From the NCBI GenBank assembly GCA_025965975.1, contig JAOPVX010000248.1, positions 1 to 48,725 of the forward strand: DNA of 48,725 nucleotides. The letters run 5' to 3'. Below, one piece after another: positions 18,177 to 36,389 of this stretch (positions are counted from its first letter, which is position 1; every line of letters starts with the position of its first letter). The DNA comes from Mycobacterium sp. GTDB lineage: Bacteria > Actinomycetota > Actinomycetes > Mycobacteriales > Mycobacteriaceae. The translations under genes and the position numbers were made by a program. Under the pieces are notes generated by a model. That model had not been told where the DNA came from. It ran no database searches and saw nothing but the letters and a program-made list of their open reading frames with translations.

Positions 18177-18202
18177 TTTACAAATTGTCGCCGAAGTGTC
18201 AG
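18177..18202. promoter_or_regulatory. Regulon operator copy (a), upstream of aldehyde dehydrogenase
   Basis: TTTACA (18177-18182), 13 bp, GTGTCAG (18196-18202). It overlaps the stop codon of the TetR gene. Read toward the dehydrogenase, the distal half-site CTGACA is 36 nt from the ATG, in -35 position for a leaderless transcript. Confidence 0.75.
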
Positions 18203-18756
18203 CCGTTTTGTTTGATCCCAGCGGCATGACGGAGCTGCGCCAGGAACTGGTCGTCATCGTCGCTGCGGACGATGTAATGCGACACCGCAACGCGAATCGC
18301 GGTCGCGGCCTTGACGGCTCCGTTGGGTCCTGGCATCAGCTTCAGCAAGCGTGCCCGCATGACGGGAATGATTCTGCCCAGTTGGGCGATCACGACCTCG
18401 GGTTCGATGTCGACCAGTCGCACGCCCGAGTACGACTGCTGGTACTCGACGATGAACCGCAACGCGGCGTCGAGTTTTTCCGTCCCACGCAGGCCCGCCG
18501 TCGCCCGGCTGATACCCGTATCGAACATCTCGCGCTCGTAGACGCCGAACGCGTCGAGCAGTTCCCCTTTCGAGGCGAACCAGCGGTACAGCGTCGGACG
18601 GGAGACGCCGGCTTGCAGCGCTACTTCCGAGAGGCTCAGTTTCGTCTGACCACTGCAAGCGAGCACATCCGCGGTGGCGACCAAAATCCGGTGCCTCGTC
18701 GACGTGTCTTCGGCGAGGTCGGGGGCGTCGCGCCCTGCAGTTAGTGGTCCGTTCAC
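18199..18756 (-). CDS. TetR-family regulator 1 (paralog of the protein at 24531-25076)
   Basis: The 185-residue TetR regulator has its HTH at about residues 39-60 (KLSLSEVALQAG, SRPTLYRWF). This HTH is identical over 23 residues to that of TetR 2, and the ligand domains also align (DAALRFIVEYQQSYSGVRLVDIEPEVV versus DAALRVIVEYQQSYPGLRMVDIEPAQV). The GTG start is at 18756. It lies downstream of the decayed kinase gene and upstream of operator (a). Identical recognition helices imply the same DNA site, for which the eight-copy palindrome is the obvious candidate; this is inference. Confidence 0.88.
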   Translation of the reverse strand: MNGPLTAGRDAPDLAEDTSTRHRILVATADVLACSGQTKLSLSEVALQAGVSRPTLYRWFASKGELLDAFGVYEREMFDTGISRATAGLRGTEKLDAALRFIVEYQQSYSGVRLVDIEPEVVIAQLGRIIPVMRARLLKLMPGPNGAVKAATAIRVAVSHYIVRSDDDDQFLAQLRHAAGIKQNG

Positions 18757-18766
18757 TTCCTTGGCC

Positions 18767-19889
18767 TCAATCGTTGCGTTCTGATGATGGTAATTGCTGG
18801 GACCCCCGGTTACGGCAGCGGCACGGCCCGGCGTCGGTCACAGCGACTTCCTCAGTAGCCACGGTGTCGAGGTCATCGAGCGCGACCACCGCGCGCCGAA
18901 GGCCTTCCAACGCGATGCCTTCGTCTTGCATGCCACCCATACCCGCGGTGATCAGCGCCGCGACGTAGGGGTAAAGGGCGCCCTGCCGGTAGCGATCCCA
19001 CAGGTCGTCGCGATCTAGCTCGGGGCCGCCCGCGGCGACCAGCGCCCCGCGGTAGCCGTCGAGCAGGTCACGTTCACTGGCCTGGCGGTCGTCGGTCGTC
19101 ATGCAGGTGACCAGCGTGTAGGCCAGCTCGCGGCTCGGGTGGCCGCGCCGCACGGCCTGCCAGTCGAGCAGTCCCGCGCCACCGTTACGGAAGTAAACGT
19201 TTCCAGGATGCGCGTCACCGTGCATCACCGTGTGTGGCGGTGCATCGATGAATCGCGCCACCGCGCGGTAGTTCTCGTCGATGAAGCGGCCGTTCTCGAC
19301 GGGGATATCGGTGCGTTCAGCGAGCCGGCCCGCGGACGTTTTCAGCAGAGGCCCGGTCAGCAATGAGGCGCTGTCGGCCGACGCCGTGTACAGCCAGCCG
19401 GGCACGCGGCCCCAGAACGTTGCGTGAAGCCGGGCGAGAAGCTCGACGATCAAGCCGGTCTTGTCCTTCCAGCGGATGCAGGGTGTCGGGGAATTCGCAG
19501 CTATCGACCGCGAGATCCTCAAGCACGAGCACGAAGCGGCCGGTCAACGGATCGAAGGCCGACCCGTACGCCTTGGGCAGGCCGGTCAGTTCGGCCGCGA
19601 GCCGGCCGTAGAAGCGGGTCTCGGTCTCAGCGAGACGGCCCAACTCGCCCATCATGCGGGTCGCGGCGGTTTCGGCGGCCATCTACACGAAGACTGATTG
19701 CGGGACACCACCACCGGTGAGTGCCAGCCGGGCTCGCGACGACGTTCCCGCATCGCCGCTCATCACGGACACCGACGTCACCGTGCGTCCGATGATCTGT
19801 GAGAGCGCCCTAGCGTCGAGGTCGCCGATTGTGCGGGGCAGCGATCGAACGCGGCCGACGATCGCGTCAAGTGGCGATACGTTGGACAC
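18767..19889 (-). pseudogene. APH-family phosphotransferase pseudogene (nonsense codon plus frameshift)
   Basis: On the minus strand the N-terminal part (LDARALSQIIGRTVTSVSV ... RARLALTGGGVPQSVFV) runs into TAG at 19683-19685, where the family has Lys (AAG to TAG), and continues in the same frame MAAETAATRMMGELGRLAETETRFYG. Around 19465-19480 the frame changes (EFPDTLHPL then TGLIVELLARLHATFWG) and goes on through the catalytic VMHGDAHPGN and LLDWQ motifs to 18767. The intact form would be a phosphotransferase of the aminoglycoside/choline kinase fold, like the genes at 22424 and 23272. One substitution and one indel make it a true pseudogene candidate. GTG 19889 is the likely original start. 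Confidence 0.85.
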
Positions 19890-19938
19890 CGCGGCCCAGA
19901 TGCGACGCCAGGCCGACGATCGGCGCAACCCGATTCAT
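19867..19938 (-). CDS. Leaderless mini-ORF (23 aa) from operator (b)
   Basis: ATG 19938 on the minus strand is exactly 35 nt from the outer edge of operator (b). The frame reads MNRVAPIVGLASHLGRGVQR and three more residues to TGA, overlapping the start of the APH pseudogene. It may be a translated leader, or the displaced true start of the kinase gene. No similarity is recognised. Confidence 0.35.
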   Translation of the reverse strand: MNRVAPIVGLASHLGRGVQRIAT

Positions 19939-19947
19939 CTCGCCATG

Positions 19948-19973
19948 TTTACAAAATTGCGGTGAGTTGTAAA
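19948..19973. promoter_or_regulatory. Regulon operator copy (b), between APH pseudogene and CaiB
   Basis: TTTACA (19948-19953), 13 bp, TTGTAAA (19967-19973). This is the most symmetric copy: TTTACA and TGTAAA are perfect inverted half-sites. It lies between divergent genes, 35 nt from an ATG on the minus strand and 17 bp before CaiB. Confidence 0.75.
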
Positions 19974-19989
19974 GCTCCTGCGAGAAGGG

Positions 19990-21165
19990 ATGACGATGGC
20001 AGGACCGATGGAGGGCATCACGGTCGTTGAACTTGGCGTCTGGGTCGCCGGGCCGGCGGCAGGCGGGATACTGGCCGACTGGGGCGCGGACGTCATCAAG
20101 ATCGAGCCGCCGACCGGCGATCCGGCGCGCATGTTCGGCACGATGCTCGGGATCGAAGACGGCCAGAGCCCGCCGTTCGAGATGGACAACCGTGGCAAGC
20201 GCAGCATCGTGGCGGACCTGACGACCGATCCCGGATGCGCGACAGCGATCGAATTGCTCAGCGGCGCAGATATTTTTCTCACCAACGTGCGCCCCGCCGC
20301 TTTGCGGCGGATCGGCCTTGACTTCGATACCGTGGCCGCAGCCAATCCGGGGCTGGTGTACGGGTTGATCACCGGATACGGCGACAGCGGACCCGACGCC
20401 GACCGCGCGGCTTACGACGTCGCCGCGTTCTGGGCCAGGGCGGGATTGGCGCACTTGCTGACCCGACCAGGTGACACGCCTCCGTTTCAGCGCGGCGGCA
20501 TGGGTGATCACTCGGCGGGCATGACCCTCGCGGCCGCGGTTTGTGCGGCCCTGGTTGCGCGAACGCGAACCGGGAAGGGACAGTTGGTAAGCACCTCGCT
20601 GTACCGGCAGGGCGCCTACACCATCAGCTTCGACCTGAACACCTTCCTGATGACCGGGCATTCCATCGCGATCGGCCAGCGCGAGACGATGGGCAATCCG
20701 TGCATGAACAACTATATGGCCGGCGACCGGCGGCGGTTCTGGATCGTCGGCCTGCAGGGTGATCGTCACTGGCCTGCGCTGTGTCGGGCTGTTCGGCGGC
20801 CCGAATGGCTTACCGATGCGCGCTTCGCCACCGGGCGGTCGCGTGCCGCAAACGCCGTCGAGCTCATCGGTGAGCTCGACGAGATCTTCGCCGCCAGGCC
20901 ACTCGACGAATGGGCCAAAGTCTTTGCGGGCGAACCGGATTTCTTCTGGTCACCGATCAACTCCGTCGAAGATGTGGTGGCCGACGAGCAGTTCCACGCG
21001 GCAGGCGGCGTCGTCTACGTACCCCGCGATGCCTCAAGCGTGCCGATGGTGGCGACGCCTGCGGACTTTCACGGCACGCCGTGGGAGCCGCGGTCGGCCG
21101 CACCCGGGCTCGGCGAGCACACCGACGACATCCTTGCCGAGTTGAAGACGCGTCGAAGCTCGTAA
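19990..21165 (+). CDS. CaiB/BaiF-type CoA transferase (class III)
   Basis: The 391-residue class III CoA transferase moves CoA between carboxylic acids. It shows the N-terminal GITVVELGVWVAGPAAGGILADWGADVIKIEPP, the substrate loop FEMDNRGKRSIVADL, and the conserved aspartate in GGMGDHSAGM (about residue 176), which is the position of the catalytic Asp in the family. ATG 19990 has AGAAGGG just upstream, so unlike several neighbours it uses a normal ribosome binding site; ATG 19996 is an alternative. Operator (b) lies 17 bp before the start. A role in activating an acid for beta-oxidation with the nearby acyl-CoA dehydrogenases is inferred. Confidence 0.9.
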   Translation: MTMAGPMEGITVVELGVWVAGPAAGGILADWGADVIKIEPPTGDPARMFGTMLGIEDGQSPPFEMDNRGKRSIVADLTTDPGCATAIELLSGADIFLTNVRPAALRRIGLDFDTVAAANPGLVYGLITGYGDSGPDADRAAYDVAAFWARAGLAHLLTRPGDTPPFQRGGMGDHSAGMTLAAAVCAALVARTRTGKGQLVSTSLYRQGAYTISFDLNTFLMTGHSIAIGQRETMGNPCMNNYMAGDRRRFWIVGLQGDRHWPALCRAVRRPEWLTDARFATGRSRAANAVELIGELDEIFAARPLDEWAKVFAGEPDFFWSPINSVEDVVADEQFHAAGGVVYVPRDASSVPMVATPADFHGTPWEPRSAAPGLGEHTDDILAELKTRRSS

Positions 21166-21172
21166 ACCGACA

Positions 21173-21198
21173 TTTACAGATTGCAGCGAAACTGTCAC
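21173..21198. promoter_or_regulatory. Regulon operator copy (c)
   Basis: TTTACA (21173-21178), 13 bp, CTGTCAC (21192-21198), followed by GCT. ATG 21208 starts exactly 35 nt after the first base. It drives the leader frame, the DUF-type pseudogene and the APH gene. Confidence 0.8.
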
Positions 21199-21207
21199 GC
21201 TGTCCGA

Positions 21208-21300
21208 ATGAGCGTGGAGGTGACGACGCGAACCCGCCCGGATGTCGACCCGGCTGGCCGCGACTGCTACGCCGGCGCCAGCCCGAAGACGGGTAGGTAG
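21208..21300 (+). CDS. Leaderless 30-residue leader ORF
   Basis: ATG 21208 sits 35 nt from the edge of operator (c) with no room for a ribosome binding site, so translation would be leaderless. The frame codes for 30 residues (starting MSVEVTTRTRPDVDPAG) and ends at TAG 21298-21300, five bases before the next ATG. It may be a coupled leader peptide, or the cut-off N-terminus of another gene. No family is recognised. Confidence 0.4.
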   Translation: MSVEVTTRTRPDVDPAGRDCYAGASPKTGR

Positions 21301-21305
21301 ACACC

Positions 21306-22427
21306 ATGGGTTACTCCGCCGCAGACGAGTCGTTCACCCACCACCTTCCGCGTCCGTTCGACGAGGTGCACCATCCCGACAACACCTGGTCGGACCGGTG
21401 TTACTTCTTCGCCGCCTCACCCGACGGCAGCCTCTTGCTGGCGTCGGGTTACGGCAACAATCCCAACACCAAGACGGGCCTCGGGTACGTCAAGGTGACC
21501 TTCGCTGACGGTCGGCATTACGACTTGATGGCCGGTCGGCCGGTGACCGGCGACGATCGCGCCGACGTTGGCGCAGGCCCGATGCGGTGGACGTGCGTCG
21601 AACCGCTGAAGCGCTGGAAGCTCGAGATCGCCCCGAATGACTCCGGGATCGCCTGGGAGCTCTACTACGAACCCACCGCGCCGATGTGGGAACTGCTGCC
21701 GCTCAACGTGCAAGGCAGGGACGGCAGGCTGATCGCCGACATGTATCACATGAAGGAGCCCGGCAAGTGGACCGGCTGGGTCGAGATCGCGGGCGAGCGA
21801 ATCTCGGTCGACGGCTTCCATGGCGGGCGCGACCGCACGTTCGGGGTGCGCGTCGCCGACGAGATCGACTTCTGGCTGTGGCTGGACGCCGGTTTCGAGA
21901 ATCGCGCGATTGAGGCGTGGATCGTCGAAACCTCGGCGGGTGAAGTCACGTACGTCGACGGCGGGATCACAACGACGGCACGTTGTCCAGGCGCTTCGTG
22001 AAGATCGAACACGACGTCGAGTTCGACGGCGACCGCAAGCGGCCGTCTCGTGCTGTGCTCGCCTTCACCGACGAGGACGGCCAGACGTACCGCGTCACCG
22101 CCGAGTCAACATGTCAACGCCTACTACGGGCTGCCGATGTCGAAATGCAACTACGAGGATCTCGGCGGGGGCGCGTACTTCATCCAGTACCGCTGGGATG
22201 CCAATGACCGCGACGAGCTGGTGGAGACGGAGGACAAGTCGATGGCGATCGACCAGCTGATGCGCTTCGACTTCGACGGCCAAATCGGCTGGGGCGTCTT
22301 CGAAATACTGATGGGTGGCGGCGCATATCCCCGGTATCCGAACTGGCGCCCGATGGACATGTCGAGGTTCAAACAGGACACCTCACCGGCCGACCGGCCG
22401 CCCGCGGAAAGCGCGGTCCGGCAATGA
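21306..22427 (+). pseudogene. DUF7065/DUF7064-type protein, frameshifted
   Basis: Three frames together encode one protein of about 373 residues starting MGYSAADESFTHHLPRPFDEVHHPDNTW. The first frame runs to about 21975 (YVDGG), the second continues HNDGTLSRRFVKIEHDVEFDGDRKRPS to about 22112, and the third resumes HVNAYYGLPMSKCNYEDLGGG to TGA 22427. The pattern (DRCYFFAASPDGS, NNPNTKTGLGY, VDGFHGGRDRTFGVR) is that of a mycobacterial protein of unknown function that I associate, from memory, with DUF7065/DUF7064. Two single-base shifts break it, unless they are assembly errors. The end overlaps the APH start (ATGA). Confidence 0.7.
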
Positions 22428-23488
22428 GTGTGGCCGAACAACTCAGGGCTTGGTTGCCGACGCAGCTGCCCAACGCCAAGGACGTCCGAATCGAAGGGCT
22501 AGACCGCATCGAGTTCGGGCACTCGGCGGAAATGATGGCGTTGACCATTGTCGCCGCCGAGGACCGTCAAGACGTGGTTGTGAGACTGCGTCCTCACCCG
22601 CCTGCGCTGCTCGAACCCTATGACCTGAAGCGCCAATTCGACATCCTGCGCGCGCTCGAACACACGCCGGCACGAGCACTGCGCGCGTTGTGGCCGGAGG
22701 ACTCCGGCGAGGTGTTGGGTCGCCCGTTCTTCGTGATGGAGCGAGTCGGCGGAACCGTCTACGAAATGGAAACTCCCGACGCGGCACCCCGGCACATCCG
22801 ATGCATGTGCGAAAGCATGGCAGAACAGCTCGCGGCCATCCACACCGTCGACCTACCCGCAACGGGTCTGCACGCGCTGGGCGACGGGAGCAATCACCTC
22901 GACCGCGTGATCGACCACTGGGCGGACGAAATGCATCGCGTCCAACGCGGAACGCTTCCCGCGCTGGAGCGCCTGCTGCAGGGATTGAAGGAGACCAAGC
23001 CGCAACCGTGCCCCAACATCGCCCTGGTCCACGGCGACGCTAAACCGGGCAACTTCGCGTTCGTCGGCGACGAAGTCAGCGCGGTATTCGACTGGGAGAT
23101 GACCGATGTCGGCGATCCACTCACCGATATCGGCTGGATGGAGCTGTTGTGGATGCAGCCGGTCGGGATCACCAGCCACGACGCCCCCTCCGTCGACGAA
23201 TTCATCGATCGCTATGAGGCGTTGAGCGGAATCAAGACCCAGAACCGACGGTGGTACCGCGCCATGAACGCCTACAAGATGGCGGTCATCTGCCTGATCG
23301 GCGCGATGCTGTTCGACGAAGGCGCCTCCGATGACATGAAGCTGGTGGTCGCCGCCGGCGGCACCCACCTCCTGACCCAGGTTGGCTTGGCCGAACTGGG
23401 CATCGAACAACAACTCGAATCAGGGCAGGTGGCCATTCGCGAGCAGCGCATCGCCGAGGTGCAATCCCGGGTCGCTGCACCGCACTGA
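22424..23488 (+). CDS. APH-family phosphotransferase
   Basis: The 354-residue protein has the aminoglycoside phosphotransferase/choline kinase fold: catalytic loop VHGDAKPGNFAF (about residues 202-213), metal-binding aspartate in VFDWEMTDVGDP, and the N-lobe FVMERVGGTVYEME. Relatives in mycobacterial lipid-catabolic clusters are annotated only as phosphotransferases or acyl-CoA dehydrogenase-associated kinases, so the substrate is open and antibiotic resistance should not be assumed. It is coupled to the upstream DUF-type gene by ATGA and lies on the transcript from operator (c). It converges with, and its 3' end is overlapped by, the minus-strand APH gene. Confidence 0.85.
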   Translation: MSVAEQLRAWLPTQLPNAKDVRIEGLDRIEFGHSAEMMALTIVAAEDRQDVVVRLRPHPPALLEPYDLKRQFDILRALEHTPARALRALWPEDSGEVLGRPFFVMERVGGTVYEMETPDAAPRHIRCMCESMAEQLAAIHTVDLPATGLHALGDGSNHLDRVIDHWADEMHRVQRGTLPALERLLQGLKETKPQPCPNIALVHGDAKPGNFAFVGDEVSAVFDWEMTDVGDPLTDIGWMELLWMQPVGITSHDAPSVDEFIDRYEALSGIKTQNRRWYRAMNAYKMAVICLIGAMLFDEGASDDMKLVVAAGGTHLLTQVGLAELGIEQQLESGQVAIREQRIAEVQSRVAAPH

Positions 23489-24534
23489 TCGGCTAGGCGC
23501 GCCTCGAGGAGGCCAACCGCGTCGAGGTCGTCGATGGCCTGCGTCGTGCTGATCATCGCGGCGCGCGAGACGTCGATCGGTTGCCGCCGTGACCCCATCG
23601 CGGCGGTCGATGCCGCGGCGATCCACGAGTACACCGAGAACAGCCGGTACTGCTCGCTGGCGGTTCGCTCGTCGAGCAAGACACCGTGTGCGGCCAGTGC
23701 GCGGCGGTACCGAGCGATCAAAGACGCCTCCTCGGCGCGCCGGGCCTCGACGGGGAGCGAATTGCACAGAAAGTAGGCGACGTCGCGCATCCCGGGGCCG
23801 CGGCCTGCGACGGCCCAGTCGTAGAACCCGGTGCGGCCAGCGTCGACGAACAGATTGCCGCTGTGAGTGTCGCCGTGGATGAGCGTGCACTCACCCTCGC
23901 TGAACAACCCGATCACGTCAAGGGATCGCATCGCGTACAGCTCGCCGAGACGCCGGAACACCGATGGCATGTCCTGGGCGAACTGGTCCAAAGCCGAGAC
24001 GATGAACTGCGCTCGACGGTTGGCCATTCCGGAGTCCACGGGCTTGCGTTTCATCCCCGACGGTGTGGGCAACCAGGCCAGGTCGCTCCCCCAAAAGGCC
24101 GCGTGCAGTGTCGCGAGCTCGTCCATCAGGGACACTGCGACGGCCCGAATGTCGTCGTCCGATGGGCCGGGGAAGACGCATCCGGCCGCTTCGAGGTCCT
24201 CCAGCACCATCATGAACGAGCCGTCGTCACCGTCGAAGTCGGCGTGGTACACCTGCGGCACCCGGACGGGCAGCTCCTTACCCACGTTCGCGTACAGGCG
24301 CGCCTCGGCGACGCCAAGACCGATCTGTCGCAAGAACTTTCGCTGCTCCTCGGTGAACGGCTGCAGCTTGACGAACACCGTGGCGGGCAGGTCGGAGGCG
24401 CCGGTCAGGCGCACGCGAGCCCGGCCCGTGGTGCCGGAATGGGCGTCGAGTACCTCGACGCCAGTCACCGGGCGGCCGAGGACTTCACCGAACCAGTCCG
24501 GCGTGAGCTCCTCTGTCCGGAACGGGATGCTCAC
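23272..24534 (-). CDS. APH-family phosphotransferase 2, with C-terminal run-on
   Basis: From GTG 24534, whose GTGA overlaps the TetR 2 stop, the frame gives 420 residues. The kinase-like core is complete: RARVRLTGASDLPATVFVKLQPF, MVLEDLEAAGCVFPG, catalytic CTLIHGDTHSGNLFV, FYDWAVAGRGPGMRDVAYFL. The recognisable domain ends near IDDLDAVGLLEARLADQ; the last 70 or so residues are low-complexity, lie antisense to the end of the plus-strand APH gene, and end at 23272. The native stop has probably been lost. It is a homolog of the kinase pseudogene at 18767, and both adjoin a TetR paralog, which points to duplication of a TetR-kinase pair. Confidence 0.8.
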   Translation of the reverse strand: MSIPFRTEELTPDWFGEVLGRPVTGVEVLDAHSGTTGRARVRLTGASDLPATVFVKLQPFTEEQRKFLRQIGLGVAEARLYANVGKELPVRVPQVYHADFDGDDGSFMMVLEDLEAAGCVFPGPSDDDIRAVAVSLMDELATLHAAFWGSDLAWLPTPSGMKRKPVDSGMANRRAQFIVSALDQFAQDMPSVFRRLGELYAMRSLDVIGLFSEGECTLIHGDTHSGNLFVDAGRTGFYDWAVAGRGPGMRDVAYFLCNSLPVEARRAEEASLIARYRRALAAHGVLLDERTASEQYRLFSVYSWIAAASTAAMGSRRQPIDVSRAAMISTTQAIDDLDAVGLLEARLADQCGAATRDCTSAMRCSRMATCPDSSCCSMPSSAKPTWVRRWVPPAATTSFMSSEAPSSNSIAPIRQMTAIL

Positions 24535-25076
24535 GATGTCCTCCCGCGGGCACGGACCCCCGCCGCGTGCCGGAGCTGGGCGAGGAAGTCGTCGGCGTCG
24601 TCGCTGCACACCAGGTAGTGCGATATCGCAACGCGCACCGCCGTTGCGACAGCCAAGTCGGCATCCTGGTCCGTGGTGAATCGCGCGAGACGTTCGCGCA
24701 TGAGTGGAATGACGCGGGAAAGTCGCCTGATGACCTGCGCGGGCTCGATGTCGACCATGCGCAGTCCTGGATACGACTGCTGGTATTCCACGATGACGCG
24801 TAAAGCCGCATCGAGCCTCTCGCTTTGCGGCACGCCTGCGGTCGCCTCGGCCACCGCGTGCTCGTAAAACCGTCGCTCCCAGACCACGAAGGCATCGAGC
24901 AGATCCCTCTTCGAGTCGAACCAGCGATAGAGCGTCGGCCGCGACACCCCCGCCTGCAGCGCCACCTCGGAAAGGCTGAGCTTGGTCATCCCGTTGCGCC
25001 CGAGCACCTCCGCGGTAGCGGCCAGAATTCGCTGCCGAGTCGAGTTGTCTTCGTCCACGGGTGACGGGCGCACCAT
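24531..25076 (-). CDS. TetR-family regulator 2 (paralog of the protein at 18199-18756)
   Basis: The 181-residue TetR protein has its HTH at about residues 32-53 (KLSLSEVALQAG, SRPTLYRWF), identical to that of TetR 1, with a related ligand domain (YQQSYPGLRMVDIEPAQVIRRLSRVIPLMRERL). It starts MVRP at ATG 25076; GTG 25073, the second codon, lies exactly 35 nt from operator (d) and could be the true leaderless start. It is divergent from the P450 gene across operator (d), the classic arrangement of an autoregulated TetR repressor, and coupled to a kinase gene downstream. It is the best candidate for the regulator of the eight-copy palindrome. Confidence 0.9.
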   Translation of the reverse strand: MVRPSPVDEDNSTRQRILAATAEVLGRNGMTKLSLSEVALQAGVSRPTLYRWFDSKRDLLDAFVVWERRFYEHAVAEATAGVPQSERLDAALRVIVEYQQSYPGLRMVDIEPAQVIRRLSRVIPLMRERLARFTTDQDADLAVATAVRVAISHYLVCSDDADDFLAQLRHAAGVRARGRTS

Positions 25077-25082
25077 GACAGC

Positions 25083-25108
25083 TTTACAAATTTTCGCCGA
25101 AGTGTCAC
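25083..25108. promoter_or_regulatory. Regulon operator copy (d), TetR 2 / P450 divergent promoter
   Basis: TTTACA (25083-25088), 13 bp, GTGTCAC (25102-25108), followed by GCT. The P450 GTG (25118) is 35 nt from the first base; on the other strand a GTG (25073) is 35 nt from the last base. The element thus fits promoters in both directions. Confidence 0.85.
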
Positions 25109-25117
25109 GCTGAATCG

Positions 25118-26374
25118 GTGACTGTAGCCAGCTCGCCGCAGGTCCGGGAGTACAGCGCGCTCGACCTTTCGACACGCCGGTTCTGGAGCCAGCCGTTTGA
25201 GGTGCGGGACGAGACCTTCGCGGCGCTGCGCGCCGCCGACGGCCTGAGCTGGCACCATCCGCTGCCGACGATGTTCCCGATGGAGGAGCCCGGTTTCTGG
25301 GCGCTGACCCGGCGGGCCGACATCGCCTACGTCAGCCAGCATCCCGAGTTGTTCACGTCCGCTCGCGGAATCGCGTTGGATCCGATGCCATTCGAGGTTC
25401 AGAAGATCGCCACGTTCTTCCTGGCGATGGATCCACCGCAACACACCACCTACCGGCGGCTGATCAGTTCGGCGTTCACCCCGCGCAATGTGCACCGCAT
25501 CGAAGAGCAGATTCAGAAGAACGCGGTGGCCGTCGTCGATGATCTGGTCGGCGCCGGCGACGTGGACTTCGTTGCGGCGTGCTCGTCGCGACTTCCGATG
25601 CTGACCATCACCGAAATGCTCGGTGTTGCACCGTCGGAGCGCGAAGCCGTCGCCAAGGCCGCCGAGAAGCTGTTCTCCATGAGCGATGACGAATACTCAT
25701 CACTGGAAGAACGGGCGCAGAACACCATCAACGAGATGATGTTGTTGTCCAACACGGGCATCGAACTTGCCAAATACCGTCGCAGCCACCCCGGCGATGA
25801 CCTGATGAGCAGCATCGTCAACGCCGAAGTCGACGGTCACCGGCTGACGGACGAAGAGATCGGCGCGTTTCTGATCCTGCTGTCGTCGGCGGGCAACGAC
25901 ACCACGAAGCAGACGACGTCTCACGCGATGTTGGCATTGGCGAACAACCCGGCCCAACGGGACTGGCTGGCGCAGGACGTCGAGAGCCGGATCGGGCCGG
26001 CGATCGAGGAGTTCGTCCGGTGGTCCTCGCCGGTGCTGCAATTCGCGCGCTTCGTCACCGAGGACACCGAGATCGCGGGCCAGCAGATCAAGGCGGGTGA
26101 CAAGCTCGGCCTGTTCTACTGCTCAGCCAACCGCGACGAGACCGTCTACGACGAACCCCATGCGTTCAACCTGCAACGCTCGCCGAACCCGCATCTGGGT
26201 TTCGGCGGGGGCGGGCCGCATTTCTGTCTGGGCAACCAGCTCGCCAAAGCCGAGCTGCGAACCCTGTTCAGGGAGTTGCTGACTCGGCTGCAGCCGATCG
26301 AGTTCGGCGAGCCGGACCTGCTGCTGAGCAACTTCGTTCACGGAATCAAACGCCTTCCGGCCCACATCCGGTAG
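25118..26374 (+). CDS. Cytochrome P450
   Basis: The 418-residue soluble bacterial P450 is a haem monooxygenase that uses electrons from a ferredoxin. Features are the I-helix oxygen-binding motif LSSAGNDTTKQ (about residues 254-264), the K-helix E-x-x-R in EEFVRWSSPV, and the haem loop FGGGGPHFCLGNQLAKAE with axial Cys at about 370. The pattern LAMDPPQHTTYRRLISSAFTPR is shared with mycobacterial P450s acting on sterol or lipid-like substrates, but the substrate cannot be assigned. GTG 25118 is 35 nt from operator (d), so the mRNA is probably leaderless. A 3Fe-4S ferredoxin follows 19 bp downstream as likely redox partner. Confidence 0.95.
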   Translation: MTVASSPQVREYSALDLSTRRFWSQPFEVRDETFAALRAADGLSWHHPLPTMFPMEEPGFWALTRRADIAYVSQHPELFTSARGIALDPMPFEVQKIATFFLAMDPPQHTTYRRLISSAFTPRNVHRIEEQIQKNAVAVVDDLVGAGDVDFVAACSSRLPMLTITEMLGVAPSEREAVAKAAEKLFSMSDDEYSSLEERAQNTINEMMLLSNTGIELAKYRRSHPGDDLMSSIVNAEVDGHRLTDEEIGAFLILLSSAGNDTTKQTTSHAMLALANNPAQRDWLAQDVESRIGPAIEEFVRWSSPVLQFARFVTEDTEIAGQQIKAGDKLGLFYCSANRDETVYDEPHAFNLQRSPNPHLGFGGGGPHFCLGNQLAKAELRTLFRELLTRLQPIEFGEPDLLLSNFVHGIKRLPAHIR

Positions 26375-26393
26375 CGATACCTCAGGAGTGAGG

Positions 26394-26585
26394 ATGCGGG
26401 TCGAAGTCGATCTCGACAAATGCACAGGGCACGGGATTTGCGAATCGATCGCCGCCGACGTCTTCGAGGTGCAGGACGACGGCACCGTGCTGATCCGTGA
26501 GAACGAACGGCCGGATGCCGACCACGAGCGGATGCAGCAGGCCGTAACGCAATGCCCCGCTGCGGCTTTGCGGCTAAGCGACTGA
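26394..26585 (+). CDS. [3Fe-4S] ferredoxin, P450 redox partner
   Basis: This 63-residue ferredoxin begins MRVEVDLDKCTGHGICES and has the C-x2-H-x2-C ... CP ligand set (CTGHGIC and QCPAAAL). The histidine in place of a fourth cysteine is seen in many mycobacterial P450-linked [3Fe-4S] ferredoxins. ATG 26394 has AGGAG at 26384-26388; an in-frame GTG two codons upstream is less likely. It is encoded right after the P450 and followed by a hairpin. Confidence 0.93.
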   Translation: MRVEVDLDKCTGHGICESIAADVFEVQDDGTVLIRENERPDADHERMQQAVTQCPAAALRLSD

Positions 26586-26598
26586 CAGGTCGCCGAGA

Positions 26599-26646: not shown

Positions 26647-26648
26647 GC

Positions 26649-27462
26649 TCAGCGCGCGGGGCGCGGCCGGACCAGCACCGACTACTGGATGGCGCCGACG
26701 GCGCCGCTCTCGTCGAACAGCGTGCCGATCGTCGTGCCGATACCGTCGGGCCCGTAATTGGTCTCCGCGCGGATGCCGATCCATTCGCCGTCGGGCACGC
26801 GGTGCACGTGCACCACGAGGTCGGTGTTGAGGAACGTCCACTTGCGGATGTCCAGCTTCGTGCCGATGCCGTTGGCGTCGTCGGCGACCGCGAACAACCG
26901 CTCCAGCGGAGTCATCGTCTCGCCCTTGACGAGATCAACCTCCGGCTTGATCCACGACTCGCCCTGGCCCTCGCTCATTGGCTTGGTCAGCCACCGCCAG
27001 TCCAGACTGCACATAGTTGCGGTCCCAGTCCTTCTTCATGTCGCGGCTCTTGGCCTCTGCGACCGGGCGCAGCGGCTCCGCAGGCGCGTGCACGACTTCT
27101 GCGGTGTCAACTTTGTGCAGCCGCCACCCGCTCGCCTTCGCGACCGGACGGGGCGATCCGTCGGGGCCGACCGCGAGCATCTCGGCGCTCACCAACTCGA
27201 TCTGGTTGCCCGAGCGTTCGAGTTGAGACCGAACCCAGAGTTCACCGTCGGCAGGTACGGGTCCCAACAGGTCGACCATCACGCGGCTCAGGCGAGTGTC
27301 ATCGCGCGCCGCGCAGCGCTCCAATCCCCGCACCAGCAGCGAGGACACCGGCGCCGCATGCTGAATCGCCGCCGACCAGGTGCTGCGGACCATGTCGGTT
27401 GCCGTGAACTTCTCGCCTTGGGGATCGGCGTCGTCGATCAGTTCGTAATAGGAGTCAGACAT
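26649..27462 (-). pseudogene. Acyl-CoA thioesterase-like (TesB-fold) pseudogene
   Basis: The N-terminal part from 27462 (MSDSYYELIDDADPQGEKFTATDMVRSTW ... GSPRPVAKASGWRL ... MKKDWDRNYVQS) shifts frame near 27005 and continues SLDWRWLTKPMSEGQGESWIKPEVDLVKGE ... FLNTDLVVHVHRVPDGEWIGIRAETNYGPDGIGT. A TAG at 26682-26684 replaces what looks like a Gln codon; the original end, SVLVRPRPAR then TGA, lies at 26649. The hot-dog-fold layout (DLVVHVHR, WIGIRAETNYGPDG) is that of mycobacterial TesB-type thioesterases. One frameshift and one nonsense change indicate decay. An intact enzyme would release acids from CoA in the same pathway. Confidence 0.8.
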
Positions 27463-27480
27463 TTCACTTTCCCGTCGACG

Positions 27481-28293
27481 TCAGGGCCGGCCGGCGCCGG
27501 GTACGTCGACCGTCACCGCATCGAGGCGGGACAGTTTCGTGCCGATGAGCCGCTGTGGATAGGCGTCGGTGCTCGAGAGCAGGAACAGAGTGCGCCGCGC
27601 CGGCCCGCCCAGCGCGCAAGCGATCGCGGTCCGGTCGCCCATGTCGATGCGGTCCGTGACCATGGCGCCCTCGAGGATTCGCTCGAACTGGTTAGCCAGT
27701 GTCATCGAAGCCCAGACGCCGCCTTCGGCGTCGAGCGCGATGCCGTCGGGCGGTCCGTCGAGCCCCTCCGCGAAAATCCGCCTGTCCGAGAGCGACCCGT
27801 CCTCGCCGACGGCGAACGCGGTCAACCGCCGCCCCACCGACTCGGCGACGATCAGCGTCCTGCCGTCGGGCGTGATGACCATTCCGTTGGGGAAGTCGAG
27901 ATCCTCGGCGACAACGGTGAATGCCTCATCGGGGTCGAGCCGCACGATGACGCCGCCCTCGCGCGCCTGCGAGCCGACATAGGCGCGCCCGACGTCGTCG
28001 ACGACCATGTCCCCAAGGTTCGCCGGCGCGACGTCGGACAAATCGGCGACGGTCGTGACGATATCGCCGTCGTAGCGCAGCACCTGCCGGCTCTCGGTGG
28101 AGGCGATCAGCAGCGACCCGTCGCGGCGGAAGCCGAGACCGGACGGGGCATGGCCCGCCAGCGGCAGCGTGGTCATGGCTCCCTGCAGGTTGACGGTGTG
28201 TACCGCCTCGCCAAGCATGTCGGAGAACCACAGCAGTCCCTCGAACCACCGGGGCCCCTCGCCGAAGCAGAAACCTTTGGCCAGCGGCGTCAG
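27481..28293 (-). CDS. SMP-30/gluconolactonase-family protein (unusual start)
   Basis: The six-bladed beta-propeller of the SMP-30/gluconolactonase family hydrolyses lactones with a metal ion. Visible are FCFGEGPRWFEGLLWFSDMLGEAVHTV, RYDGDIVTTVADLSDVAPANLGDMVVD, EDLDFPNGMVITPDGRTLIVAES and PDGIALDAEGGVWAS. The domain begins right after TPLAKGF. A CTG codon at 28293 lies exactly 35 nt from operator (e), where neighbouring genes have their leaderless start; no ATG/GTG/TTG lies between the operator and the domain. Either CTG is used, the start was mutated, or translation begins at in-frame GTG 28314 or TTG 28350 inside or beyond the operator. About 270 residues from CTG. A lactone intermediate is implied for the pathway. 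Confidence 0.8.
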   Translation of the reverse strand: MTPLAKGFCFGEGPRWFEGLLWFSDMLGEAVHTVNLQGAMTTLPLAGHAPSGLGFRRDGSLLIASTESRQVLRYDGDIVTTVADLSDVAPANLGDMVVDDVGRAYVGSQAREGGVIVRLDPDEAFTVVAEDLDFPNGMVITPDGRTLIVAESVGRRLTAFAVGEDGSLSDRRIFAEGLDGPPDGIALDAEGGVWASMTLANQFERILEGAMVTDRIDMGDRTAIACALGGPARRTLFLLSSTDAYPQRLIGTKLSRLDAVTVDVPGAGRP

Positions 28294-28302
28294 CGCCGCA
28301 CC

Positions 28303-28328
28303 TTTACAAAACACGCCATAAGTGTCAC
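28303..28328. promoter_or_regulatory. Regulon operator copy (e), SMP-30 / hydrolase remnant
   Basis: TTTACA (28303-28308), 13 bp, GTGTCAC (28322-28328). A GTG at 28338 is 35 nt away on the plus strand and a CTG at 28293 is 35 nt away on the minus strand. Confidence 0.8.
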
Positions 28329-28337
28329 GTTCGCTAG

Positions 28338-28796
28338 GTGCCACTGTCAACTACCGGCGGCCCGTCGTGAACATGAAGCGCTATCACCGCAGCACCAGCC
28401 GGGTGCTCGACGATCGCCCGACGCCGTCGAAGGACGGAGTTCGACGCGACTCCCGGATTCGACGGGCCGGCCGTCACGTTGATGTGGCAGCACCACCTTG
28501 CAAGCGAACTGGTCCCGGTCGGCGCCGTTCCGGCCCGCGCCGATGACTTGGCCGGTGTCGCAAGCGCCTTGATCACGTGCTCAGAGCTCGACCCGCTTCG
28601 CGACGAAGCGGTCGACTGCGCACTGCGGCTCATGTGGGCCGGCGGGGCGACCGAGCTGCACGTCTTCCCCGGCACCTGCCACGGCTTCGACTCGCTGCTT
28701 CCGGAGTGGGAGACAAGCCAGCGACTATTTGATCTTCAGGGCACGGCGTTGAGGCGGGCGCTGCATGAGTCTCAACTGGAGCCCCCACGGATGTAA
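28338..28796 (+). pseudogene. Alpha/beta-hydrolase (HSL-type) remnant
   Basis: Only the C-terminal part of an HSL-type alpha/beta hydrolase survives. RVLDDRPTPS in one frame (about 28397-28430) passes into another that encodes ASELVPVGAVPARADDLAGVASALITCSELDPLRDEAV and the catalytic-His region HVFPGTCHGFDSLLPEWE to TAA 28796. The ALITCSELDPLRDEA motif carries the catalytic Asp, but the GDSAGG nucleophile part is missing. The GTG at 28338, 35 nt from operator (e), opens only a 10-codon frame ending at TGA 28370. A large deletion plus a frameshift have destroyed the gene while leaving its promoter. Confidence 0.75.
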
Positions 28797-28848
28797 CGCT
28801 ATGGCGTGATTTCGGCAGATTTCCCGCCACCACGTTACAAACGACGGC

Positions 28849-29268
28849 TTAGGCTGCGAGCTCTCGCGCGATGGCCGCGTGGTAGGCGTCAATATTGGCA
28901 GGGTCGACCGTCCGGAAAAAGGCGTCCGGCATCGGAGCATGTTTGTACGCCTCGATCGTCATCGTGCGGGTGAACAATGTGCCGCCTTCACCGGGCCGCG
29001 TGAAGTGGTACGAAACGGTGATTCGGCCCTCGAGGCCGCCACTGCCGTCGCGGTCATGGCCAAGGCGGCCGACTGAATTGAACACCCACAGCGCGGGGCG
29101 CATCGCGATGGCGAGGTGCCAGGTGAAGATGCGGTCGGAGTCCGCACCCGCCTCCGTCCAGGTGTCACCGACCCTCAACGGCAGATCCTTGGGCAGTTCG
29201 CCGACGTGCCCACTACCGGGGTAGGTCTTGGTCCACTTGGCCGGGTTGGTCACGAAGTCGCAGATCAC
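28849..29268 (-). CDS. SRPBCC-family protein, N-terminus uncertain
   Basis: From GTG 29268 the frame codes 139 residues of START/Bet v1-like (SRPBCC) character: VICDFVTNPAKWTKTYPGSGHVGELP, RIFTWHLAIAMRPALWVFNSVGRLG, GRITVSYHFTRPGEGGTLFTRTMTIEA. Such proteins bind or cyclise hydrophobic ligands. The open frame continues upstream without a stop to a GTA codon at 29346, exactly 35 nt from operator (f); a mutated start codon there would explain the missing N-terminus. The fold's usual first strand is mostly absent if GTG 29268 is used. The function in the pathway is unknown. Confidence 0.6.
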   Translation of the reverse strand: MICDFVTNPAKWTKTYPGSGHVGELPKDLPLRVGDTWTEAGADSDRIFTWHLAIAMRPALWVFNSVGRLGHDRDGSGGLEGRITVSYHFTRPGEGGTLFTRTMTIEAYKHAPMPDAFFRTVDPANIDAYHAAIARELAA

Positions 29269-29355
29269 CTCCGGTGATTGGCTGAAATGCCGTTTCCGAA
29301 CTTGTGGAGACGATGCCCAACGTGGCGCCCTTTTCTGCTCGCGTACCGCCCTTAC

Positions 29356-29381
29356 TTTACAGATTGTTGGAAAAGTGTCAC
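29356..29381. promoter_or_regulatory. Regulon operator copy (f), upstream of acyl-CoA dehydrogenase
   Basis: TTTACA (29356-29361), 13 bp, GTGTCAC (29375-29381). GTG 29392 follows 36 nt after the first base. On the minus strand a GTA lies 35 nt from the other edge in frame with the SRPBCC gene. Confidence 0.8.
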
Positions 29382-29391
29382 GGTGTCTTTC

Positions 29392-30558
29392 GTGGATTTC
29401 TCCCGTGTCGAGCTATCGGACGACGACCAGGCGTTCCAGGGCGACCTCCGTGCGTTTCTGAAGACGGTCGTGACGGACGAAGTCATCGCTCGAGATCGTC
29501 AGACGGGTGAAAACTTCGACGAGGGTGTGCATCGTGCGCTTGGCGCGCAAGGCTATCTGGCCGCCGACTGGAAGCTGGAAGCCGACGGTGGCTTCAGCCC
29601 GCTGCGGCGGCGCATCTGGGAACTGGAGATCGGCCGGGTTCACACGCCATGGTTCCACTGGGGCACAACGGCCATGGTCGCCAAGACCGTTGATCAGTTC
29701 GGCTCGCCCGAGCTCAAGCAAGAGCTGCTGCCGCGGGTGTTGTCGGGCCACTTCCGGCTGTGTCTTGGCTACACCGAGCCCGACGGCGGCTCGGATATCG
29801 CGACGTGCAAGACGCGTGCGGTGCGCGACGGCGGCTGCTGGATCATCGACGGCGCCAAAATGTTCACCTCCAACGCGCACAACGCCCAGTACGTCTTCCT
29901 GGTCACCAACACCGATCCGGAGGCGCCGAAACACCAGAGCCTGACGATGTTTCTCGTCCCGCTGGATACACCGGGTGTCGACATCCAACCCCTGCGCACC
30001 GTGGACGGCGACCGCACCAACGTCACCTACTACAGCGACGTGCGCGTCGACGACAAATACCGGGTCGGCGAGGTCAACGGCGGCTGGACGGTGCTGCGTG
30101 AGGCGCTCAACGACGAGCACGGCACGGTCGAGCGCGACGCACACGGCCTGCAGAAGCTCGCGGTCATGACCGAACACCTCCTGCTGTTGGCCGAGGCGGT
30201 CGACAGAATCGCGGCGACGGCCCGGCTCGACGACGATTCGGTGAAATACCGATTGGGCCGCGGTGTCGCGAAGATGGAAGCCGCGATGAGTACGCCGGAG
30301 ATGTTCGGTCGCGTCGCGATCGCGCAGACCATGCGCGACGTGTCGCCGGATCTGATGGACCTTCTTGGCGCCGCATCCGGCCTGCCGATCGGTACCGAAG
30401 GGGCCGCCGACGACGGGGGAGCCGAGTACATTTTCCGGTTGGCGGGACCCACCGGCATCTACGGCGGCACCCTGGAAGTATTCCGCAACATGATCGCCCA
30501 GCACGCGCTCGGACTCGGGCGTGCGAACTACTCGCCGCCGGTGACGCAGAAGCCCTAG
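29392..30558 (+). CDS. Acyl-CoA dehydrogenase
   Basis: This FAD enzyme introduces a double bond next to the CoA thioester. The 388 residues show FAD/substrate loops LCLGYTEPDGGSDIATCKTRAVRDGGCWIIDGAKMFTSNAHNAQYV, RTVDGDRTNVTYYSDVRVDDKYRVGEVNGGW, and the C-terminal GIYGGTLEVFRNMIAQHALGL. GTG 29392 is chosen because it is 36 nt from operator (f), the spacing seen elsewhere; GTG 29383 (VSFVDFS) is an alternative that would better match the usual MSFVDF start of relatives. It resembles FadE-type enzymes acting on bulky acyl chains. It ends in a 4-bp tail-to-tail overlap with the LLM gene on the other strand. Confidence 0.9.
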   Translation: MDFSRVELSDDDQAFQGDLRAFLKTVVTDEVIARDRQTGENFDEGVHRALGAQGYLAADWKLEADGGFSPLRRRIWELEIGRVHTPWFHWGTTAMVAKTVDQFGSPELKQELLPRVLSGHFRLCLGYTEPDGGSDIATCKTRAVRDGGCWIIDGAKMFTSNAHNAQYVFLVTNTDPEAPKHQSLTMFLVPLDTPGVDIQPLRTVDGDRTNVTYYSDVRVDDKYRVGEVNGGWTVLREALNDEHGTVERDAHGLQKLAVMTEHLLLLAEAVDRIAATARLDDDSVKYRLGRGVAKMEAAMSTPEMFGRVAIAQTMRDVSPDLMDLLGAASGLPIGTEGAADDGGAEYIFRLAGPTGIYGGTLEVFRNMIAQHALGLGRANYSPPVTQKP

Positions 30559-32320: not shown

Positions 32321-32381
32321 GCCCGGTGACCCCTTCTGCGGCGCGAACCCTGTACATTCCGTGATTCGCATGGTAACGACA

Positions 32382-32398
32382 TTCTCAGAAATCGAGAA
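32382..32398. promoter_or_regulatory. Short inverted repeat in a divergent promoter region
   Basis: TTCTC (32382-32386) and GAGAA (32394-32398) around 7 bp, between the divergent MaoC-like and LLM genes. It is unrelated in sequence to the eight-copy operator. The arms are short, so this is only a possible operator. Confidence 0.25.
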
Positions 32399-32423
32399 GA
32401 CTGTTCTGAAGCGGAGCACTTTG

Positions 32424-33341: not shown

Positions 33342-33347
33342 GCGCCA

Positions 33348-33584
33348 TCAGATCCAGCGCTCTTCGAGCAGCGCGCGAGCGTCGATGCCGTAACGTTCGG
33401 CCGCGGTTTCGGCGTGCCGCAGGAAGCTGGAGTACACCCCGGCATGGCCAAGGGTGAGTGTTTCGCGATCGACACGCACGGGCCGGTCCTGCAGCGGGCG
33501 GACGATGTCGTCGGCGGCGCCTTCCAGCGCATGCAGGTCGCAGCCGTGGTTCCAGCCAAGTCGGTCGGCGGCGGCGATGAACAC
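33348..33584 (-). pseudogene. C-terminal fragment of a 4-hydroxy-2-oxovalerate aldolase-like gene
   Basis: The 78-residue frame ([30 protein letters not shown] ... [39 protein letters not shown]) matches the C-terminal communication domain of DmpG/HsaF-type aldolases, whose hallmark is the [16 protein letters not shown] stretch. The TIM-barrel catalytic half is absent; just upstream is the end of the acyl-CoA dehydrogenase. The usual ending after LLEE (GRRxxxGGQEDM) is also missing. It is a remnant of a meta-cleavage-type pathway, cut at both ends. Confidence 0.7.
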
Positions 33585-33597
33585 CTCGCTGACGACG

Positions 33598-35430: not shown

Positions 35431-35485
35431 CGCATTTCCCTCCACCTAGCAAACTGGAGCAAGTGTGGCGGAGCAGGGAAAACGT

Positions 35486-35529
35486 ACGCAACCGTAACCA
35501 CGCCCAACCTACGGTGACGCAACCGTAGG
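35486..35529. promoter_or_regulatory. Repeat/palindrome operator region upstream of the FadE5-like gene
   Basis: A perfect palindrome CCTACGGT-N6-ACCGTAGG occupies 35508-35529. The 11-mer ACGCAACCGTA occurs twice in direct orientation (35486-35496 and 35517-35527), the second inside the palindrome. Two spaced half-palindromic sites 31 bp apart before a divergent gene suggest a regulator different from the TetR pair. Confidence 0.5.
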
Positions 35530-35589
35530 GTGCGAGGTCGCGACCATATGTGACTCGCGTCACACCCCGCAGCGGCAGTCTGGCGCTCG

Positions 35590-36267
35590 TCAGGAAGGGG
35601 GCAGCTCTGCGAGTACCTCGGCACGGGCCGCGTCGAAGCTGAAATATCCCTTGATCGGCAGGAATTCTGGCGGCGGGTCCTGATAGCTCCACGCCACATC
35701 GCCGACGACGGTATCGCCGACCACCGCCGCCCAATACGTCGCGTAGCCCTTGTAGTTGCAGTAGCTGCTGGTCTCGGTGCGCCGCAACATGTCCGTGCGG
35801 ACAACCGAAGGATCGACGTAGAGCCGAGGTTCCAGCGCAGTTTCGAACACGATCACCGTGTCCATGGTGTCCACGAGTGTCGCACCGGCGACGTTGACCC
35901 GCAGCCCGCGCTTCGTCGGGCGGCAGTCGACGCGGTGATACGGATTCGGTGGGTAGTGGACGAGCCGGCGCCCTTCCTCCAGCCAGGTGTCGACCGCGTC
36001 CCATGGCACATGGACATATCCCGGTGCCTCCGGTTCGGGGTCGTGGGGAAGCTCACCGACGTCGTCGGCCGGGAATGCGTAGCTCAGTGGGCGATCGCGG
36101 CGGTGCACCATCAGCGCCCGCTCGGTGTCGATGACCGTCTGGCCGTCGCGGATGGCCTTAACGCGTCGTGGATGCGGCTCGACGAAGACGAGATCGTCAG
36201 GCAACGGGGATGAGAACCAGCCTGCGGGGTCCTTGCTGAGCGGACCACGCCCCGCGACAAGACTCAT
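35590..36267 (-). CDS. DUF427 domain protein (two DUF427 halves)
   Basis: The 225-residue protein from ATG 36267 (MSLVAGRGPLSKDPAGWF) contains two DUF427-like halves: PRRVKAIRDGQTVIDTERALMVHRRDRPLSYAFPADDV and RGLRVNVAGATLVDTMDTVIVFETALEPRLYVDPSVVRTDML ... TSSYCNYKGYATYW ... DVAWSYQDPPPEFLPIKGYFSFD. The biochemical role of DUF427 is not established. Upstream, a leaderless mini-ORF (36264-36284) ends in an ATGA overlap with this start, and operator (g) is 36 nt from that mini-ORF, which places the gene in the regulon. The frame is open upstream to 36348 but those codons lie in the operator. Confidence 0.85.
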   Translation of the reverse strand: MSLVAGRGPLSKDPAGWFSSPLPDDLVFVEPHPRRVKAIRDGQTVIDTERALMVHRRDRPLSYAFPADDVGELPHDPEPEAPGYVHVPWDAVDTWLEEGRRLVHYPPNPYHRVDCRPTKRGLRVNVAGATLVDTMDTVIVFETALEPRLYVDPSVVRTDMLRRTETSSYCNYKGYATYWAAVVGDTVVGDVAWSYQDPPPEFLPIKGYFSFDAARAEVLAELPPS

Positions 36268-36284
36268 TTCGAGGCTCCGATCAT
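36264..36284 (-). CDS. Leaderless mini-ORF (6 aa) coupled to the DUF427 gene
   Basis: ATG 36284 lies 36 nt from the outer edge of operator (g). The frame MIGASK ends at TGA 36264-36266, overlapping the DUF427 ATG as ATGA. It would let ribosomes loaded on a leaderless mRNA pass to the DUF427 start. Confidence 0.4.
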   Translation of the reverse strand: MIGASK

Positions 36285-36294
36285 CGTCTCCAGC

Positions 36295-36320
36295 TTTACA
36301 AACTTTGTGCGACATGTCAC
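36295..36320. promoter_or_regulatory. Regulon operator copy (g), DUF427 side
   Basis: TTTACA (36295-36300), 13 bp, ATGTCAC (36314-36320). It sits exactly 60 bp from copy (h), between the divergent DUF427 and 36427 genes. Confidence 0.75.
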
Positions 36321-36354
36321 GAGGGGTGCCGAGTCGATCCGGCCACAATTGACC

Positions 36355-36380
36355 TTTACAGATCAGCGCAAAAGTGTCAC
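36355..36380. promoter_or_regulatory. Regulon operator copy (h), plus-strand side
   Basis: TTTACA (36355-36360), 13 bp, GTGTCAC (36374-36380), followed by GCT as in copies (c) and (d). ATG 36390 is 35 nt from the first base. Confidence 0.8.
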
Positions 36381-36389
36381 GCTCTTGTT

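Follow-up and report, generated by a model that had tools for sequence, protein, structure and literature searches.

A ~32-bp inverted repeat with unequal arms is the probable operator of a TetR-family catabolic regulon in mycobacteria

The DNA analysed here (the window) is the entire contig C176, 48,725 bases, of a 7.44-Mb Mycobacterium sp. genome assembled in 449 contigs. Between positions 18177 and 36380 it carries eight copies of an inverted-repeat element which, with good confidence, can be regarded as the operator of a TetR-family repressor. Direct inspection of the sequence returned all eight coordinates of the original prediction. Six copies (21173, 25083, 28303, 29356, 36295, and 36355) read TTTACA-N14-TGTCAC with both hexamers exact. 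In the copy at 18177 the right end is TGTCAG instead of TGTCAC, and that at 19948 is a palindrome of the form TTTACA-N14-TGTAAA, in which the TTTACA arm is therefore present on both sides. The spacing, put forward as 13 bp plus one variable base, is indeed 14 bp between hexamers and is fixed in relatives as well.

The copies are distributed over a cluster of predicted catabolic and regulatory genes. Copy 1 (18177..18202, plus strand) lies 10 bp from the likely ATG (18166) of an aldehyde dehydrogenase gene (ALDH; 16682..18166, minus strand), the product of which is Rv0768-like but scores under the cut-off of that family; a gene for a SnoaL-like protein (16260..16682, minus) follows downstream. 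Copy 2 (19948..19973), which has no strand, separates the gene for a CaiB-type CoA transferase (CaiB; 19990..21165, plus; ATG 19990, gap 16 bp) from the divergent pair of the kinase gene APHa (18767..19522, minus; the frame holds the C-terminal part only) and, next after it, the gene for the repressor paralogue TetR1 (18199..18756, minus), assigned from Pfam TetR_N and alignment with TetR2. Copy 3 (21173..21198, plus) is located 5′ of an Rv3169-family gene (21306..22427, plus; NF053593), present as two frames (21306-22001 and 22050-22427) where the related locus L069 has a single frame of 377 residues, and of the kinase gene APHb (22424..23488, plus), related to the ACAD11 kinase domain. Copy 4 (25083..25108, plus) lies between the divergent genes for the TetR2 repressor (24531..25076, minus; ATG 25076, gap 6 bp) and a cytochrome P450 of the CYP268 type (25118..26374, plus; GTG 25118, gap 9 bp), whose best match in PDB is CYP268A2 (6bld, E 2.4e-126). 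TetR2 was assigned from Pfam TetR_N, co-occurrence with the motif, and a structure model with a TetR fold. Downstream of TetR2 lies APHc, encoding an EcKL/APH-type kinase (23272..24609, minus), and after CYP268 a single-cluster ferredoxin (26388..26585, plus). Copy 5 (28303..28328, plus) is 5′ of the gene for an SMP-30/gluconolactonase-type lactonase (27481..28302, minus), the start codon of which is uncertain, and beyond it an acyl-CoA thioesterase is encoded in two overlapping frames (26682..27462, minus). Copy 6 (29356..29381, plus) stands between hyp139 (28849..29268, minus; no Pfam match) and an acyl-CoA dehydrogenase gene (ACAD; 29383..30558, plus; GTG 29383 or 29392, gap 1 or 10 bp). 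Copy 7 (36295..36320, plus) precedes the gene for a DUF427 protein (35590..36267, minus; ATG 36267, gap 27 bp), and copy 8 (36355..36380, plus) precedes hyp238 (36385..37023, plus; no Pfam match), the start of which is uncertain between TTG 36385 and ATG 36427 (gap 4-46 bp). Plausible start codons are thus close to the site for ALDH, CaiB, TetR2, CYP268, ACAD, DUF427, and hyp238; the start codons of the Rv3169-family gene, SMP-30, and hyp139 are unclear or more distant from the site.

Third-order Markov shuffles contained copies in 0 of 200 cases, against eight real sites, and scanning with zero to two mismatches returned exactly these eight. Every TTTACA word of the window (eight on the plus and one on the minus strand) is part of an operator copy, in agreement with the claim that no copy exists elsewhere in it. 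When up to three mismatches were allowed, 17 matches compared with a shuffle mean of 12.3, a total reached in 11 of 100 shuffles and, hence, not significant. The organism's own genome contains one additional exact-hexamer copy (C260:6125; L188:6125-6150), and no second copy of the TGTAAA type was found there with up to one mismatch. The additional copy falls inside a SnoaL_4-domain frame if this is read in its longest version, 5′ of the domain itself, and may therefore mark the start of that gene; it also adjoins the gene for ribosomal protein S16 (rpsP), as does an operator copy in another genome (G013, L178). With up to three mismatches, 41 matches were found genome-wide versus 54 for a reversed control; as the control outscores the real pattern, weak sites are not to be trusted. 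A pattern one base longer, which acts as a spacing control, recovered none of the eight window sites in the genome scan with up to two mismatches. Chance or a low-complexity repeat as the origin of the element was rejected in view of the shuffles, the lack of reversed-control matches in the 73 related loci described next, and the fixed spacing.

The anatomy of the element was derived from relatives, that is, from the best 80 of 334 TetR relatives, which correspond to 73 distinct loci (1.33 Mb), all titled Mycobacterium, Mycolicibacterium, or Mycobacteriaceae. With up to one hexamer mismatch, they contain 210 copies, versus 0 for the reversed control. Where both hexamers were exact, the spacing was 14 bp at 172 sites and 15 bp at 2, while 8-13 and 16-20 bp did not occur; centre to centre, the hexamers are 20 bp apart. 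The second arm is TGTCAC at 172 sites and TGTAAA at 40, and the converse arrangement, GTGACA-N14-TGTCAC, was absent from the 73 loci. Among 200 asymmetric segments, the base 5′ of TTTACA, which is outside the search pattern, is C in 97%; the two bases 3′ of this hexamer are A in 91% and A in 93%, position 19 is A in 86%, and TGTCAC is followed by G (76%), C (88%), and T (75%). Conservation thus extends beyond the pattern that was searched for, and the element spans ∼32 bp, with the consensus AGC-TTTACAAA-N9-AAGTGTCAC-GCT. The length of 26 bp initially assigned to it was thus too short, as about three further bases are conserved on either side. The element is an imperfect inverted repeat with the arms AGCTTTACAAA and, on the opposite strand, AGCGTGACACTT; its description as a palindrome of TetR-operator size was correct as to the dyad but not the size, since, with ∼32 bp and two unlike arms, it is longer than an ordinary TetR operator.

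Across the 73 loci, the element is associated with the first genes of the presumed operons. A site was present near the start of the homologues of CYP268 (54/54), SMP-30 (56/57), TetR2 (62/64), ALDH (48/57), CaiB (55/65), the Rv3169-family gene (5/6), hyp139 (6/6), hyp238 (3/3), and ACAD (2/2). Downstream genes seldom have one: there was none at the 62 homologues of SnoaL, nor at the 56 and 57 homologues of the two thioesterase parts, and for ferredoxin, APHb, and APHc the counts were 6 of 50, 0 of 6, and 0 of 5. TetR1 homologues were preceded by a site in only 4 of 70 cases because TetR1 comes after APHa. The counts for APHa (0/59) and the alpha/beta hydrolase (0/15) are uninformative, the query frames from the window being truncated. 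Altogether, a homologue of a window gene adjoins 241 of 259 sites in relatives. The orientation is constant for each gene: CYP268 is found on the TGTCAC side (66 sites), the TTTACA arm faces ALDH (49 sites) or SMP-30 (47 sites), and copies ending in TGTAAA adjoin CaiB at 45 sites. Proximity to a start codon as such (255 of 259 sites versus 917 of 1295 random positions) is of little use as a test because random positions in GC-rich genomes often pass it.

Copies of the element also accompany these genes elsewhere. In 20 stretches with further sites, which were chosen by hand and are not a random sample, 12 sites face the start of a gene homologous to one in the window: ACAD in G020, ALDH-SnoaL in G012, DUF427 in G008, APHa in G006, TetR3 (a further TetR paralogue, see below) in G022, and hyp238 in G028, G027, G033, G012, and, together with SMP-30, G004. 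Two of the 12 homologues are weak (27-30%; G020 and G016). The SMP-30 loci of relatives contain additional genes. In 52 of 57 of them (L066-L138), a second P450, less than 40% identical to CYP268, is encoded within 3.5 kb. In L069, the far side of the SMP-30 site carries genes for a NIPSNAP-like protein (below the cut-off), this P450, a zinc alcohol dehydrogenase, a short-chain dehydrogenase, and a flavin monooxygenase (FMO)-like protein; this group with the second P450 and the FMO-like monooxygenase was not seen among the frames of the window.

The distribution of the element across genomes points to a TetR as its partner. In a sample of 61 genomes from 22 genera, the motif (up to one mismatch) was found in 29 and TetR in 29, and these were the same 29. 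At a threshold of E 1e-30, TetR relatives were restricted to these 29 genomes and to a single genus, that of the window, which on this basis and from the titles of the 73 loci is assigned to Mycobacterium in the wide sense; neither TetR nor motif was present in 8 genomes of the genus and 24 from the rest of the order. CYP268 at no less than 74% identity occurs in just 14 of the 29 motif genomes and is missing from 15, so the motif tracks TetR rather than the P450, and a motif tied to the P450 alone was rejected. When sampling within the genus was extended from the first 37 to 108 genomes, TetR was found at E 1e-70 in 88 and the motif in 82; all 82 motif genomes have a TetR match, which in one (G111) is only partial. 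Seven TetR genomes were negative for the motif by pattern, among them G079, which has an exact-hexamer copy, and G066, which has a copy with two mismatches.

TetR1 and TetR2 are paralogues (61% identical) with an identical recognition helix, AGVSRPTLYRWF, and both score above the cut-off of TetR_N (PF00440). The structure model of TetR2 displays an all-helical TetR fold of nine helices (predicted local distance difference test score, pLDDT, 85.6). When the model was submitted to Foldseek, the 50 matches listed were all regulators, most of them named as TetR family, with KstR, FasR, and Rv0078 among them. Affiliation with known regulators was not supported by the NCBIfam models, as the scores of TetR2 and TetR1 for KstR were 29.7 and 22.9 bits (cut-off 280), those of the two TetRs for FasR 30.9 and 29.1 bits (cut-off 330), and those for the mycofactocin regulator MftR (TIGR03968) 31.2 and 25.9 bits (cut-off 224.9). 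A search of plasmids with TetR1 yielded 7 records with distant matches only. TetR2 is likely a cognate regulator of the element. TetR3 (identity to TetR1, 49-56%) is directly preceded by an N14 copy at all four of its loci (L175, L189, L190, and L191; in L175, a gene for a predicted metal-dependent hydrolase adjoins TetR3). These copies carry ATGTCACACT in 4 of 4 cases and TTTACAT in 3 of 4, where the main family usually has GTGTCACGCT and TTTACAA, and at three of the loci an exact TTTACAT-N12-ATGTAAA copy is also present. TetR3 has thus diverged along with its operator copy, as a regulator-operator pair predicts, and possibly the two constitute a second, related regulon.

The element is best explained as the operator of a TetR-family repressor of a catabolic regulon, represented here by the paralogues TetR1 and TetR2, since spacing and dyad are fixed, first genes of operons are preferred, copies stay with the genes at other loci, and TetR and motif share one set of 29 genomes among the 61. 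This assignment, which upholds the shared TetR operator originally proposed, can be made with considerable confidence. It has to accommodate several observations which weigh against it. A strict link between TetR and motif is challenged chiefly by genomes that have the former without the latter: in G080, G087, G094, G102, and G108, whose TetR is 62-77% identical to TetR1, there is no copy within up to 4 kb around TetR. In four of these five stretches (L196-L200), no homologue of a window gene surrounds TetR; the fifth has distant CaiB- and P450-like genes. Likewise, two TetRs of 37-39% identity have a similar recognition helix but no copy nearby. Conversely, the TetR match in G111 (E 4.3e-66) spans model positions 58-177 only and does not include the DNA-binding part, although this genome retains the sites. 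The reversed control matched 2 of the 61 genomes (once each) and 4 of the 108. Sites were found at only 2 of 5 DUF427 homologues and 0 of 3 LLM2 homologues of the 73 loci, and 8 of the 20 further sites (L172, L173, L176, L178, L180, L181, L185, and L188) lack a homologue of a window gene on the start side; in L176, a short-chain dehydrogenase adjoins the site. Finally, co-occurrence separates regulator from cluster incompletely, and the genomes are not independent.

Some of these points would equally follow if the element served as operator for a different regulator that was passed on along with the cluster, while the TetRs control something else: five genomes retain TetR without a nearby copy, G111 retains the sites with a partial TetR match only, and the linkage could partly reflect inheritance of the cluster. 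Such an arrangement is improbable, given that a TetR match exists in 82 of 82 motif genomes, that 62 of 64 TetR2 homologues have a site and the diverged paralogue a diverged copy, and that 15 of the 29 motif genomes lack a CYP268 of at least 74% identity. Even less probable, to the point of being remote, is a sigma-factor promoter in place of an operator. Seen from the TGTCAC side, GTGACA-N16-TAAA does resemble a −35/−10 pair (GTGACA as −35 and TAAA after TG as −10), and the copies are directly 5′ of start codons; still, first genes are found on either side of the element, with the side fixed for each gene, copies ending in TGTAAA exist, the dyad-related flanks are conserved, and the element co-occurs with TetR. 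How the two paralogues share the sites is a separate matter. That TetR1 and TetR2 divide them, or that a heterodimer reads the two unlike arms, would account for the presence of two paralogues and for arms that differ consistently (TTTACA versus GTGACA), with no GTGACA-N14-TGTCAC found; this is unlikely, though somewhat less so than the other two explanations, as sites of the same asymmetry are found where a genome has a single TetR match (e.g., G004, G018, and G024) and the recognition helices of TetR1 and TetR2 are identical.

The presumed repressor and its operator were compared with known systems. The cholesterol regulons of KstR and KstR2 resemble the one described here in having TetR repressors, short distances between operator and start, and lipid-catabolic, often divergent operons (PMC3068626), and the TetR2 model matches KstR structures. 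The operator of KstR2 is the 14-bp AnCAAGnnCTTGnT (PMC3068626). As the consensus found here is different, spans ∼32 bp, and has its hexamers 20 bp apart, a KstR2-type site was rejected, in line with the earlier statement that the element is unlike it. Rv0078/EthR2 of M. tuberculosis binds, as two dimers, an operator of 21 bp which starts with TTTACAAG and is longer than tetO (PMC6016246), and its structure 6c31 is a fold match to the TetR2 model; this operator differs from the present element in length, right half, and spacing, and the proteins share 13-16% identity and have different target genes. The operator of Mce3R is also asymmetric (PMC11667970). Mce3R (9b7y) is the best PDB sequence match of TetR2; however, it is one chain of 406 residues with two TetR units, whereas TetR1 and TetR2 are single-unit proteins. 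A double TetR of the Mce3R type was rejected, there being one TetR_N stretch per protein and lengths of 185 and 181 residues. The Rv3167c-Rv3168-Rv3169 system of M. tuberculosis was compared by gene neighbourhood: a TetR gene is likewise next to those for Rv3168 and Rv3169, and a palindrome is reported for Rv3167c (PMC5340868). Rv3168 is an APH-type protein with the structure 3ats, of which APHb is a distant match (60 bits), and the window has an Rv3169-family gene as well. In its predicted mode of operation, the regulon is similar to other TetR catabolic regulons. Thirty regulators are included in a survey of TetR motifs from mycobacteria (PMC4482099). No description of the operator or regulon was found in searches of an open-access library; most subscription papers were outside this scope, and the motif logos of the survey were not compared.

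Since the element is directly 5′ of the first genes of several operons, both repressor operons included, a simple mode of action suggests itself. Without ligand, the repressor would cover promoter and start region and silence the operons, including its own. By analogy with Rv0078, it would probably bind as two dimers, given the distance of two helical turns (20 bp) between the arms. An intermediate of the pathway would then release it. The genes marked by the conserved element are thus very probably switched on together for the use of a lipid- or terpene-like compound. Far less confidence than in the regulon can be placed in the idea that the substrate is cyclic or branched and terpenoid- or steroid-like. 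P450 and ferredoxin may carry out hydroxylation, aldehyde dehydrogenase (and, in relatives, the alcohol dehydrogenases) oxidation, and the FMO-like monooxygenase of relatives lactone formation; the lactone could be opened by the SMP-30 protein, which matches gluconolactonase- and lactonase-type proteins. CoA transfer by CaiB, phosphorylation of the hydroxyacyl-CoA by the ACAD11-like kinase, and acyl-CoA dehydrogenation would follow. APHb contains the catalytic motifs HGDAKPGN (HxDxxxxN loop) and DWE (DxD/E) and, as far as PDB is concerned, matches ACAD11 (8v3v, E 4.3e-21), with 9o56 and 3dxp being better matches; catalytic motifs and similarity to the ACAD11 kinase domain together predict a hydroxyacyl-CoA kinase of the LvaA/ACAD11 type. 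For the acyl-CoA dehydrogenase, the best PDB matches are the steroid-type enzymes 6wy9/6wy8 (Tcur3483) and 4x28. The gene set fits a putative route from lactone via hydroxy acid and CoA ester to phosphorylation and dehydrogenation. The combination of kinase and acyl-CoA dehydrogenase is shared with the lva operon and ACAD10/ACAD11 (PMC12440821), where 4-hydroxyacyl-CoA is reported to be phosphorylated en route to beta-oxidation by ACAD10/11 and LvaA/LvaC (PMC12440821, PMC11342911); the differences are the type of dehydrogenase and the activity of APHb, which is predicted only. Whether a genus-wide regulon, with a TetR reading a 32-bp operator of unequal arms, runs a full ring pathway of this kind (hydroxylation, lactone, hydroxy acid, CoA ester, kinase, and ACAD) and so represents, for ring catabolism in bacteria, a counterpart of the ACAD10/11 route is doubtful. 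The kinase-dehydrogenase pairing makes the lactone/4-hydroxyacyl-CoA idea directly testable in bacteria. For a widespread mycobacterial gene set that comprises DUF427, CYP268, APH-like kinases, and Rv3169-family proteins, the analysis provides a list of genes and a pair of regulator and operator that lends itself to experiment. Genome scans for the operator may add more members, for which the separate ACAD, ALDH-SnoaL, and hyp238 genes with copies are precedent.

Several frames in the window are broken or run on, namely those of APHa (18767-19946), the Rv3169-family gene (21306-22427), APHc (23272-24609), and the thioesterase (26682-27462), where L069 has single frames; this is due to either draft-assembly errors or decay. 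Of an alpha/beta hydrolase, the C-terminal part only (28479-28796; profile positions 154-208 of 210) was seen, and a matching frame of 308 residues is present in G004 (L187). Outside the cluster, between 2718 and 11207, genes for an amidase, an amino acid permease, and a copper amine oxidase form an amine-catabolic neighbourhood without the motif.

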